Made by a program: the position numbers and the translations under genes | DNA from: a virus | DNA: 59,354 nucleotides | Strand: one strand, 5' to 3' | IMG/VR virus record: IMGVR_UViG_3300020021_000011 | Coordinates: 1-59,354 of that record | In this document: positions 32,648 through 58,413 of the stretch, one piece after another | How the letters are laid out: every line of letters starts with the position of its first letter | Position numbering within the stretch: the first letter of the stretch is position 1 | Notes under the pieces: generated by a model | Seen by the model: the letters and a program-made list of their open reading frames with translations, nothing else | The model's database searches: none | What the model was told of the DNA's origin: nothing

Positions 32648-34315
32648 TTAATACCCGAATGATTCACTTACTACTACGTTATTAGTTCCATACCCACCAT
32701 TATCTGCTCTCCATAAATAATCATTAGCTACCTTAGGTCTAGTCATAATAGCATATCTTAAAGCATCATAAGCATGATCCTGAACATCAGTATTAACGTC
32801 TTCAGGATTTCTATCATCTACAGGAAGAGATGATAACTCACTTATAATCTCTTTACAAGTATCAAATACAAATAGTCTAGGTCTTTGTGTATATTTATCT
32901 TTAGCTAGATATTCATGAATTTGCATTTTACCAGCCACACGAGACCCGGCACTAGAATCTGACATTCTCCAATAGCACCCAACATTATGCATTTCTTCTG
33001 CAACAGAAGGGCCATCTTGCCCTCTTTTAGCCCAGGTAGAACAGTCCAGTACCCCGTATCTAACGCGTTCTCCAGCTTCCATCTCAAGTACTTTTTTACC
33101 GAATTGAGAGGCTACTAATTTCTCTTTAGCTTTATTACCATTCTCTACCATTTCTCTATAAACATAGAGATTATTATCATAATCTACTGCTACCCATACA
33201 CAAACAGCTAAACTTGAGTATCCCCAATCACAGCCCCTAAATCTAAGCCAGTTATTAGGAATCTTAAATGGTTGGACAACATGAGTTTTCTTATTGAACT
33301 CTGAGAATGCTGCACCGGAGGCTGTATCCCAATCGCCATAACGCCATTGTTTCTTTAGAGTTTCATTCTCTATAGCTTCTAAAGATACAATATAATCTGG
33401 ATCATTCTTCATAAGGATAGAGTTATCTTCTACCGTACTATGTATCCATTTACGAGTGATAGTTCTTTCAACTCCATTTACTATATACTTTAGAGTAATA
33501 CGAGTATTAGACTCACCTCTATCTACAAATCGTTCTTTAACCCACCTATGTCCTGGGCCACCGGGATTTCCAGTAAAACGTAACTGGCGTTTAAGAGTAG
33601 GATCTGTAGTACGCAATGATTGTTTTAAGGTTTCTAGTATGTAGTCTGAATCATACTGGGTTAACTCATCAACCCCTAGCCATACATATTCCTGGCCTAT
33701 ATATTGATCTAAATCTTGTTCTGTATCACAGTACCCGAATTCTATAGTAGCACCTGAAGGAAATACGAACATCTTCTCCTGTTCTTTCCATCTAGTACCA
33801 GGTATTGCCTGTAAGTAAATCTTTCTTGCTCTTGACATTAATTCTCGTAGGCGTTTCATTGTCTTACGTATAATTAAGCCTTTAAAATTACCATTATTAA
33901 CGTATCTTAGTGGGTCAGCTATAAGAGCATCTGACTTACCACTACCTCTACTACCAGCGAAGAATACTTCTTCTTCAGAGGCCTCAAGGAATGCTATTTG
34001 TGGCTTATTATTAGGATCAGGCTGCCATATAATCTTTCTTGGCTGTACTGGTTCCTGAATTTCTTCAATCTTAACAGGTACTTCTACTTTAACTTCTTTT
34101 ATTACTTCTACAATTCTATCTACAAAGATTTGCTGTGGAACTATAACTTCTTTTATTACTTCTATAGTTTTAATCTTTTTAGCTTTAGCCTGCTCTCGTT
34201 TGAGCTTCTTCTTTTCCTGAAGTAATTTCTGTCTCTCCTGAGACTGTATCTTTGACCGGCTTATAGGTGGAGAAATCAGTTGGGGTTTTGTAGATTCTGT
34301 GTCTTTCGTTATCAT
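32648..34315 (-). CDS. Large terminase subunit
   Basis: 555 aa. Packaging ATPase and nuclease. Walker A G121-S-R-G-S-G-K-S-D, Walker B V-W-L-G-V-D216-E217, coupling motif F-T-G-N-P-G. The nuclease acidic residues are D363 (G-C-D-W-G-Y), D424 (V-L-D-C-S) and D513/D517 (D-H-A-Y-D-A). An N-terminal extension of about 95 residues is Lys-rich, then an I-K-E-V repeat, coiled-coil-like; it overlaps the upstream gene by 131 bases. No other ATG exists in this region, so the start is uncertain, but the core is certain. Confidence 0.95.
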   Translation of the reverse strand: MITKDTESTKPQLISPPISRSKIQSQERQKLLQEKKKLKREQAKAKKIKTIEVIKEVIVPQQIFVDRIVEVIKEVKVEVPVKIEEIQEPVQPRKIIWQPDPNNKPQIAFLEASEEEVFFAGSRGSGKSDALIADPLRYVNNGNFKGLIIRKTMKRLRELMSRARKIYLQAIPGTRWKEQEKMFVFPSGATIEFGYCDTEQDLDQYIGQEYVWLGVDELTQYDSDYILETLKQSLRTTDPTLKRQLRFTGNPGGPGHRWVKERFVDRGESNTRITLKYIVNGVERTITRKWIHSTVEDNSILMKNDPDYIVSLEAIENETLKKQWRYGDWDTASGAAFSEFNKKTHVVQPFKIPNNWLRFRGCDWGYSSLAVCVWVAVDYDNNLYVYREMVENGNKAKEKLVASQFGKKVLEMEAGERVRYGVLDCSTWAKRGQDGPSVAEEMHNVGCYWRMSDSSAGSRVAGKMQIHEYLAKDKYTQRPRLFVFDTCKEIISELSSLPVDDRNPEDVNTDVQDHAYDALRYAIMTRPKVANDYLWRADNGGYGTNNVVVSESFGY

Positions 34316-39106: not shown

Positions 39107-39445
39107 TTAACTATATAGTATATTTACAGTAATAGCAGTTCCCTGAGCAGTACTTCCTAAAGCAGTAGTAGTCGCAGCTATCTTAATTGAATTAGTAGTT
39201 ATAAATGGGCTACTACCAAATACTATATTAATACTCTGAGCAGCTGGTATACCTATTGATAATTTAGGAACTGTACTGCCAACTGTTACAGAAGCTGAAT
39301 CAAATATCTGTAAGTAAGTAACTGAAGCATTAGGATTATATGCTGTTATAGTATATATAGAACCTCTAGTACTTTTTACAGTAGCAGCTACAGCTAACAT
39401 AGCAGCATTAAGGTATGGTGTAGTAGTAATCTTATATAGAGCCAT
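39107..39445 (-). CDS. Beta-rich surface protein, 112 aa
   Basis: First gene of the minus-strand block. Pattern of alternating Thr/Ala/Ile strands, similar in style to the products at 25521 and 34665. The stop is three bases before the fibre gene start. Likely a small virion decoration or fibre protein. Confidence 0.55.
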   Translation of the reverse strand: MALYKITTTPYLNAAMLAVAATVKSTRGSIYTITAYNPNASVTYLQIFDSASVTVGSTVPKLSIGIPAAQSINIVFGSSPFITTNSIKIAATTTALGSTAQGTAITVNILYS

Positions 39446-39880
39446 TATTAATCTTTCTTTATTATATTTTTACTGAACACATTTATAAACAGTTATATTA
39501 AGTACTTATATATAATACTATATATAAATTATAGACGTAGTTCTTTTTCCGTACACCCCTGTCCCACCATATACCCTTAATAGAGATCTATTAGTATATG
39601 ATATAACATTTATACGGTATTAATAAGGGTATACGTAGATTAACTATGTTTAACTATACTGCTTGTTCTATATATCCCTGAAAGATATAATATGGATAGC
39701 CACTCCACCCCTGTCCTCAACTTCTATGAGAATTCATACTCTATTATTGTTTATAAGCCCTAATAGGTATTAGTAGGTTACAGTACGTCTTGTATAGATA
39801 TACCCCCAGCTACGTACAGCTTACGGGTGGAGCGGAAATACCTTATTGATATAATCAACAGGCCAAAGACTCCCATAGTG

Positions 39881-39910
39881 TTGGCACGGCACGCTAGTCC
39901 CCTGTATAAT
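39881..39910 (+). promoter_or_regulatory. Candidate sigma70 promoter toward the early block
   Basis: TTGGCA (39881-39886), 18-base spacer, TATAAT (39905-39910). The -10 is perfect. A transcript would have a leader of about 970 bases before the first gene at 40893, passing the C-run cluster and parS. Confidence 0.5.
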
Positions 39911-40068
39911 TTATTACCTTTAATATCTATGTCGGTTAATACAGGTTAGAGTAGTTTTTATTAAGACAGCGTTTACTCAGGCTGTTAGCTATATATTATA
40001 CCTTCTTCTAAGTTCTCCATTGCTGGCAGATGAGAAGTCCAATATAGTATATAATCTATTCAATGTGT

Positions 40069-40111
40069 ATTATATACTATTTTATATTAAATGTCAAGTA
40101 AAATCTTTACT
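40069..40111 (-). promoter_or_regulatory. Consensus sigma70 promoter with dyad for the virion operon
   Basis: Minus strand: TTGACA (40097-40092), 17-base spacer, TATAAT (40074-40069), a perfect consensus. The upstream dyad AGTAAAGATTTTACT (40111-40097) is identical to the one at the small terminase promoter. It drives leftward transcription into 39445 and the fibre, terminase and structural genes. Confidence 0.8.
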
Positions 40112-40188
40112 AAAGTATAAATATTATACAGTCAAACCTAAAGCTTCGCCAGAGTACTTATAGTTCTATTACAGAAGAATTAATACTA

Positions 40189-40207
40189 TTCAGGTAGGGG
40201 TATAGCT
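40189..40207. repeat. 19-bp sequence repeated in inverted orientation at 52307
   Basis: TTCAGGTAGGGGTATAGCT here is the exact reverse complement of 52307-52325. Both copies lie in non-coding DNA on either side of the early block. Confidence 0.8.
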
Positions 40208-40405
40208 CCTTAGTTGTTATATCGTCTATAACAGGCATTAGAATTAATCCTAGAGGTACAAGTACACCTACTCTACACCTTCTCCTTACTTTAGTATGTT
40301 TGTATATAAAAATCATATAAGATTGTAGTAAATTAGCTGATATATTTCAATATTGACTTGTTGGGTTTTAAATTATAGCTGCTATTATATTGATGTATAC
40401 GCATA

Positions 40406-40440
40406 CCCCAGACCCCCCACATGCCCCTTCCCTTACCCCC
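40406..40440 (-). other. Predicted G-quadruplex (five G-runs on the minus strand)
   Basis: Five C-runs on the plus strand (40406-40409, 40413-40418, 40424-40427, 40430-40432, 40436-40440) separated by 3, 5, 2 and 3 bases. On the minus strand this meets the G3+N1-7 four-run rule, a strong outlier in such AT-rich DNA. It lies about 90 bases from the parS match. Confidence 0.6.
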
Positions 40441-40530
40441 TTAATATATAAAAGAGTGCTTAAATAATAGGCAGCAATGAATATATGTAGATAAAACAAG
40501 ATGATAGTATTAATAGACAGGGATATATAA

Positions 40531-40546
40531 TGTTCCACGTGAAACA
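40531..40546. promoter_or_regulatory. parS: Exact parS (ParB/Spo0J binding) sequence
   Basis: TGTTCCACGTGAAACA is identical to the B. subtilis parS site and near-identical to parS across bacteria. No ParA or ParB gene is seen in the window, so it would be read by the host ParB. It lies in the non-coding hub. Confidence 0.75.
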
Positions 40547-40892
40547 ATGAGAATGATTCTTAATTGCAATATAAATGCTGCACTGCACAATAAGATAAAA
40601 TGATGTACATATAAAGTATATATCTGTAACAATCACTACACATTGAGCTAGGCATTATACAAGTTAAGAAGAGTGTGATAATAATACAACACAAGAGATT
40701 AATCATACATAACTTGTTATAAATAACTTGAAAGAACAATAAAATAGTATATTCGCGCACGTTCTATATAATATAGTATTGGCAAAACTATATATATAAA
40801 TAAAATGAATAATAATGAAAATAATAGTTGCATAAATAGAATATCTTGCTAATATGTATATAAGGTTAATAACACAAATAAGGAATATCACA

Positions 40893-41078
40893 ATGAATAG
40901 TCAAATCATCATACAGAATCTAGTTAAGTCTAATTCATTACAGCTATTACAAATATCTTATAGAAATGCTGTATTACATGATGATAAAGAGGAAATAACA
41001 TGGATTAAACAGGCTATTAGAATAAAGAAAGAACAAGTAGAAGCTAATAATTTATCTAATCATCATAAATACGCATAA
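40893..41078 (+). CDS. Small hypothetical protein, 61 aa
   Basis: ATG 40893 has AAGGAA upstream; the open frame extends to 40854 without a better start. Helical, basic, with Gln/Lys/Asn-rich content and no motif. First gene of the early block. Its AATAAGGAATAT leader recurs at the next gene. Confidence 0.6.
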   Translation: MNSQIIIQNLVKSNSLQLLQISYRNAVLHDDKEEITWIKQAIRIKKEQVEANNLSNHHKYA

Positions 41079-57195: not shown

Positions 57196-58413
57196 ATGAG
57201 CGTAGAATTTCTTAAAGCGTTATTAGATTATAATTTCTTTGATAAACACAAAGCAAGTATAACTCAGGACTTTGTGCCAAAGGAATATTATGATTTGTAC
57301 AATACAATCATTAAGTCACACACAGATAATAAAACCTCCCTTACAGTAGAAGAATTAAAGGCTTTACACAAGAGCAATAATCCTGTGATGTCAAGAGCTA
57401 AAGAGGAAGCATTAGAACCTCTTTATACTCGTTTAAAAGAGATTCCAGAGTTTAGTCAACGTATCTTAGACAGTATAATCACTACTAAGATATCACAACG
57501 TATTGCTGATGAAATTGCTATTACTGCCATAGATATTGCCTCCGGTAAGTCTGAAAGTATTGATAATTTACAGAGTCTACTGGATAAATTAAAGAAAGTC
57601 AACACTAAAGTTGATGAAAAGATAGATTTACGCAAAATAGATATTATTAATCTGGTCAATACTAAAGCCCATAACCTTCAATGGAAATTTAATTTACCAG
57701 ACCTTCATGACCGTATAAGTGGTCTAGGAGCAGGGTATTTTGGTATAATAAGTGCGCGGCCAGACTGCGGCAAAACTAGCTTCTATATGTCCCTAACTTG
57801 TGCCCCAGACGGCTTTATACAGCAGGGGGCTAAGGTTCATATCATAGGTAATGAAGAAGGCAGGGATAGGCTTAAACTACGTGCTTTAAGTGCTTTAATA
57901 GGCATTCCTGACAGGGAAATAGAAAAAGATGCTGCTAGATATCAGGAAGAATATAAAGACACTTTAGAGAACCTTTATGTAGAGGATGGATTCGGTTACA
58001 CTATTGAAATGCTTGATAATTATTGTCATAATAATGAAGTTGATATCTTAATAATAGACCAGCTTGATAAATTAGGTGTATCAGGTAAATATGGAACCAG
58101 TGAAGAACGACTTAAAAGTATCTATGTTAAAACCAGAGAGATAGCAAAGCGACATAGTTGCGGGGTTATAGGTATCTGTCAAGCCGGATTTACTGCTCAT
58201 AATAAACTGCATTATGGATTTGAGTGTTTAGAAGGGAGTAAGACGGGAAAAGGTGCAGAATGTGACTGGTGTATCACCATTGGCATGGAGTTACAAACAG
58301 GGGGAACAGATAATTATTATAGAGTAGCTAACATCCCTAAGAATAAGGTTACAGGTAAGAAATCACCAGTAGCTTTTATATTAAACCCAGAAATAGCACG
58401 TATAAGTGCTTAA
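57196..58413 (+). CDS. Replicative DNA helicase, DnaB/RecA-like
   Basis: 405 aa. N-terminal helical domain (1-150), then Walker A A187-R-P-D-C-G-K193-T-S-F, N-E-E-G-R-D, Walker B V-D-I-L-I-I-D-Q-L-D and the H3/H4 segment (G-V-I-G-I-C-Q-A-G-F). Unwinds DNA at the fork with the separate primase (53006) and DNA polymerase (427). GGAAGG lies upstream of the ATG, just behind stem 4 of the RNA leader. Confidence 0.92.
   Translation: MSVEFLKALLDYNFFDKHKASITQDFVPKEYYDLYNTIIKSHTDNKTSLTVEELKALHKSNNPVMSRAKEEALEPLYTRLKEIPEFSQRILDSIITTKISQRIADEIAITAIDIASGKSESIDNLQSLLDKLKKVNTKVDEKIDLRKIDIINLVNTKAHNLQWKFNLPDLHDRISGLGAGYFGIISARPDCGKTSFYMSLTCAPDGFIQQGAKVHIIGNEEGRDRLKLRALSALIGIPDREIEKDAARYQEEYKDTLENLYVEDGFGYTIEMLDNYCHNNEVDILIIDQLDKLGVSGKYGTSEERLKSIYVKTREIAKRHSCGVIGICQAGFTAHNKLHYGFECLEGSKTGKGAECDWCITIGMELQTGGTDNYYRVANIPKNKVTGKKSPVAFILNPEIARISA

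Follow-up and report, generated by a model that had tools for sequence, protein, structure and literature searches.

Several described systems show how a mobile genome may use DNA-binding proteins of the kinds considered here. Bacillus phage phi29 makes use of two proteins of its host, Spo0A and Spo0J (Meijer et al. 2005, as cited in PMC9437464). Phages of Alphaproteobacteria carry sites for the host regulator CtrA, clustered in gap regions and in terminal repeats, an arrangement linked to 'lytic deferment' (Mascolo et al. 2022, PMC9437464). On plasmid RK2, KorB, a ParB-like clamp, and KorA, its lock, silence at a distance (PMC11790492). The DNA analyzed here, IMGVR_UViG_3300020021_000011 (59,354 nt, the whole of which we refer to as the window), belongs to an HMO-2011-like podovirus, judged by its terminase and portal. 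Our main finding is that it pairs a chromosome-type parS site with an adjacent iron-type box, a pairing that the preliminary description of this DNA had overlooked (Table 1).

Table 1. Features of the parS-containing hub and the large terminase gene in the window
Feature	Coordinates	Strand	Remarks
Large terminase subunit, HMO-2011-like	32648..34315	-	PHROGs, tblastn, alignment
Divergent non-coding hub	39446..40892		1.4 kb; between leftward structural/packaging block and rightward early block
Sigma-70 promoter match, TTGACA-17-TATAAT	40069..40097	-	12/12 matches; faces structural genes
C-run cluster	40406..40440	+	about 95-118 bp upstream of parS
Chromosome-type parS, TGTTCCACGTGAAACA	40531..40546	+	exact match; single copy in window
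Fur/Irr-type operator (putative), TGAGAATGATTCTTA	40548..40562	.	1 base after parS

The hub is bordered by the last gene of the leftward block (39107-39445, minus strand), a block containing the portal, terminase and structural genes, and by the first gene of the rightward block (ATG at 40893), which contains polymerase A, helicase, ribonucleotide reductase and others; parS lies between these two borders, within the 1.4-kb non-coding region that had been described. The G-run cluster reported nearby is present as runs of C on the strand given. Across the whole hub, promoter-like sites are no more numerous than in shuffles, and an Rfam search of the hub found no family. Used alone as bait, the window's terminase retrieved two close relatives, both fragments lacking the hub, together with distant ones, and its amidoligase retrieved no relatives.

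The 16-mer is an imperfect palindrome and conforms to the 16-bp sequence TGTTNCACGTGNAACA that defines chromosomal parS sites, so that the exact match first reported is indeed there. It had also been called very unlikely by chance; the zero-order expectation for the window, counting either strand, is about 2.4e-5, and 0/100 dinucleotide shuffles contained it. No further parS sites were found in the window, where a scan allowing three mismatches stayed at chance level. The large terminase lies 6.2 kb away. A match to the ParB_N domain (PF02195) was not found in the window, consistent with the earlier remark that no ParB gene is seen, and the domain is missing in nearly all related records. The cognate parB on the same replicon that characterizes phage and plasmid ParABS systems is thus not found, and the window presents the situation of phi29, a phage with parS and no recognizable ParB of its own.

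The box beside parS has one mismatch to the inverted repeat TGANAATNATTNTCA and is imperfect on its right side; forms that are perfect or nearly so occur in relatives. Its core, at 40550-40560, is the only AGAATNATTCT in the window. With this one mismatch, the box conforms to the inverted repeat type TGANAATNATTNTCA / TTTAGAATNATTCTAAA, which we take to be the Fur/Irr consensus. A second Fur-type match, TGATAATTATTGTCA at 58014-58028, lies inside the helicase gene and is probably due to chance.

Is the pairing shared by related phages? The comparison proposed in the preliminary description gave a mixed answer. A parS site with an iron-type box occurs in the hub of five HMO-2011-like lineages, namely the window and four others (L098; L202/L071; the L205/L304/L310/L327/L331 group; and L329, which carries the window's exact 16-mer), and these lineages differ in the flanks of the site. 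L205 was fetched by its terminase, not by parS, and has a perfect parS with AATTAGAATGATTCTAATT a few bases on; it is an independent case of the pairing. In L098 and L202 the boxes are imperfect, and 57-95 bp separate them from parS. All contigs read from four of the five lineages have runs of G or C no farther than 250 bp from parS, as do three of five contigs of the L205 group. On the negative side, parS at up to one mismatch was not found in 15 complete HMO-2011-like records, most of them cultured and including HMO-2011 itself as well as Roseobacter and Pelagibacter phages. Conservation of the site in cultured HMO-2011-like phages is therefore rejected, and the absence shows the element to be optional, gained and lost among these phages. 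Likewise, no parS turned up in phages 023Pt_psg01, C75C1 and DSL-LC04 or in Pelagibacter phage HTVC023P, where a single one-mismatch site is unconvincing; in HTVC027P a one-mismatch site is clear and intergenic.

This absence from 15 complete records would also suit a chance match or a relic of recombination with host DNA. We consider such an origin hardly credible, given an expectation of about 2e-5 per genome, the presence, in different flanks, of parS with an iron-type box in the hub of each of four further HMO-2011-like lineages, and the wider recurrence of the pair described below.

Some hubs contain sites for other host regulators. The hub of L098 has two perfect LexA-type boxes (L098:13556 and L098:13632; CTGTATAAATATACAG, CTGTACATATATACAG), and perfect sigma-54 promoter matches (TTGGCAYRNNNNTTGCW) are located 80-300 bp from parS in three HMO-2011-like hubs, at L098:13592, L202:5385 and L329:5351; L318 has an imperfect one, and the window has none. 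A general array of host-regulator sites was rejected. The LexA boxes are confined to L098 and the sigma-54 promoters to some hubs, and when dyads were sought near 119 parS sites, all non-redundant, GAATNATTC was the sole clear partner, a result biased towards this sequence because composite loci were in the set.

In a scan of viral contigs, many of which are fragments, parS was followed within 31 bp by GAATNATTC in 51 contigs; this partner had been picked after a few hubs were seen and was then tested collection-wide with a control, a permuted palindrome of equal composition, which gave three contigs in two groups. Per Mb of the loci fetched, there are 37 occurrences of GAATNATTC and 16 of the control palindrome, but about half of the GAATNATTC occurrences are composites, so its background is close to that of the control. 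Together with the window, the 51 contigs form 17 groups whose flanks do not align, and 51 versus 3 contigs and 17 groups refute chance or a relic as the origin of the composite class. In our judgement, four groups (L300, L302, L303/L320 and L330) look like chance background, leaving about 13. In the 17 groups, the boxes continue the palindrome over 2.5 of 4 pairs, compared with about 1 expected, and their flavor differs by lineage. The form TTTAGAATNATTCTAAA is presumably that of Irr in Alphaproteobacteria, and AATGAGAATNATTCTCATT and AAATGCGAATGATTCTCATTT are presumably those of Fur. The spacing between parS and the box varies from about 0 to 30 bp and is wider in L098 and L202, a poor fit to a rigid ParB–Fur complex. 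In several groups the representatives encode phage terminases, which belong to different families, or further genes of phages.

A tighter version of the pattern, searched against 257 Gb of genomes from bacteria and archaea, matched only one Methylocapsa MAG, and hence the composite is not ordinary chromosome anatomy. In that MAG (Bacteria.bin_47; L335-L346), parS and an Irr-type box form a dispersed chromosomal repeat on 12 contigs, beside ordinary chromosomal genes and with a conserved upstream segment, CTTGTAAG...CGGACAAAA. Multiple copies are also seen in L289 and L307, which have four and two, respectively, of parS with a box such as AAATGCGAATGATTCGCATTT, placed between small genes and each followed by a GCCAAAATTATACCATATAATTTTGGC-type palindrome.

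Which proteins would read these sites? No FUR-family gene and no ParB_N domain above the cut-off was found in the 49 records searched, comprising the window, L205, L071 and composite contigs. In a phage with no recognizable ParB or Fur-family gene, both proteins would be supplied by the cell, and since the pair recurs in many unrelated viruses without either, viruses that have it probably use two host proteins for genome control or segregation. One may instead consider a DNA-binding protein encoded by the phage as the reader of parS, as most phage genes are of unknown function and two composite records have a short ParB_N-like ORF, below the cut-off, close to parS. We regard this as very improbable. 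Besides the lack of such a domain above the cut-off in the 49 composite or HMO-2011-like parS records, 44 of 49 long parS contigs among the matches listed have no ParB_N match, and the distribution over hosts points to a host reader: in annotated phages, Escherichia, Salmonella, Klebsiella and other enterobacterial names are missing among the organism names with most parS records. Enterobacterial phages are numerous, and Escherichia, Salmonella and Klebsiella have no chromosomal ParB. At L323:1603-1920 (G086, G096), an ORF of roughly 100 residues with a sub-threshold ParB_N match adjoins one of the three parS sites of its record.

Beyond the composite class, parS of the chromosomal type appears to be common in phages. 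Viral contigs contain it in at least 120 stretches; the reversed 16-mer gave 1 and the centre-swapped one 58. Among annotated phages, the extended palindrome is found in 315 records versus 5 for the centre-swapped control, and the window's variant in 164; the 315 and 164 include redundancy, and some of the phages (e.g., Gordonia phages) may have their own ParB. Carriers of parS that infect laboratory strains include DSS3P8, with Ruegeria pomeroyi DSS-3 as host, and vB_PpuM-NoPa, with Pseudomonas putida KT2440. Among the matches listed, 38% of parS sites are intergenic against a background of 17%, the control giving 14% against 15%, and the flanks extend the palindrome with A before and T after. 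A large terminase is detectable at 27 of 120 parS loci and 0 of 58 control loci among the matches listed, a comparison somewhat biased because the queries came from parS-bearing phages. Host ParB recruitment, as first suggested for the window, can thus be inferred with good support, the site being over-represented in phages, enriched in intergenic positions and upstream of the terminase, and nearly always without a recognizable phage ParB. None of 120 sites of the window's variant among the matches listed has an iron box within 100 bp; most phage parS sites being without a box, parS must have a use without it.

One alternative to the model favored below is the capture of ParB for takeover of the cell. 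On replicating phage genomes, parS would pull ParB, and with it SMC, off the few chromosomal parS sites, with the iron box either titrating its own regulator or merely being a neighbor; this would disrupt host segregation or organize the phage DNA. Sites without a recognizable ParB are common in phages, and some records have several copies, as in the four of L289. L044, a viral contig of 117 kb, has eleven exact parS sites within 14 kb; each overlaps an ORF of at least 80 aa, and no ParB_N was found in the contig. Most phages, however, have one site, intergenic and near the terminase, a placement that titration does not need; one site per genome could hardly titrate a protein as abundant as Fur, and the pairing with an iron operator is left unexplained. 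We consider capture unlikely.

The position of the sites raises another alternative, in which parS marks the DNA close to the end used for packaging or injection, and ParB loaded at this place would help the genome to enter, protect its end or position it on arrival. Among the matches listed, 16 of 27 loci have parS no more than 3 kb upstream of the large terminase, compared with 5.9 expected, and Pseudomonas phage phiPsa374 and Vibrio phage phi 3 have it in their terminal repeats. In phi 3 the sites are at L356:388 and L356:2501, in the left repeat, one of them beside repeated TTTACANTGTAAA palindromes. A role at genome ends is nonetheless improbable in our view, given the distance of the window's site from its terminase and the extended parS of phi29, which is mid-genome in the connector gene; hubs, moreover, often adjoin the terminase anyway.

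We favor the following model, to which we assign a probability of roughly 0.5: the hub is a composite element for host ParB and a host Fur-family regulator, serving as a deferment and partition switch tuned to iron. Binding of both proteins is strongly inferred from the identity of the motifs; silencing, deferment and partition would follow by analogy with the systems introduced above. In this model, Fur or Irr of the host would tie expression of the hub's genes to the cellular iron state. A ParB clamp would load at parS and slide into the hub, where it may help to silence promoters near the site, and the DNA-bound iron regulator next to parS could act as a stop or clamp for ParB. Attached in this way, ParB may tether the waiting phage genome to the host segregation machinery. 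Iron-responsive control combined with attachment to segregation is favored because phi29, CtrA and KorB/KorA provide precedents. We speculate further that many unrelated phages convergently built an iron-gated switch, with ParB loaded beside a Fur-family repressor that holds or directs it, keeping the genome silenced and co-segregated until iron changes, although so general a scheme appears doubtful.

What is the relevance of such an element? The pairing of parS with an iron-regulator operator occurs in about a dozen lineages, and no report of this combination as a phage pair was found in the literature searched. It provides concrete loci, some of them in cultured phages, for asking how phages sense host nutrition and how phage genomes interact with segregation of the chromosome. 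To our knowledge, use of host ParB by a phage was known only for phi29 and spores, and we know of no interaction of ParB with Fur or Irr.

Compared with the known systems, the window shares with phage and plasmid ParABS a centromere-like site on a mobile genome, but its site is of the chromosomal type and no ParB was detected with it. As with KorB at OB and KorA at OA, a 16-bp site for a ParB-type clamp has the operator of a second DNA-binding protein nearby; the RK2 proteins, however, are plasmid-encoded and interact directly, whereas the window encodes neither recognizable protein. Like the CtrA phages, the window places putative host-regulator sites in a divergent gap of this type, although these concern ParB and the Fur family, binding is predicted, and one compact composite takes the place of many sites. 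The resemblance to phi29, which is virulent and has the same extended parS, lies in the apparent reliance on host ParB (Spo0J) and a nutritional host regulator. Unlike in phi29, the partner in the window is a Fur/Irr-type iron operator adjoining parS in a non-coding hub, and sporulation is not expected to be involved in a relative of phages of marine Alphaproteobacteria. Our best reading is that the composite extends two precedents, the joint use of Spo0J and Spo0A by phi29 and the CtrA sites of alphaproteobacterial phages.
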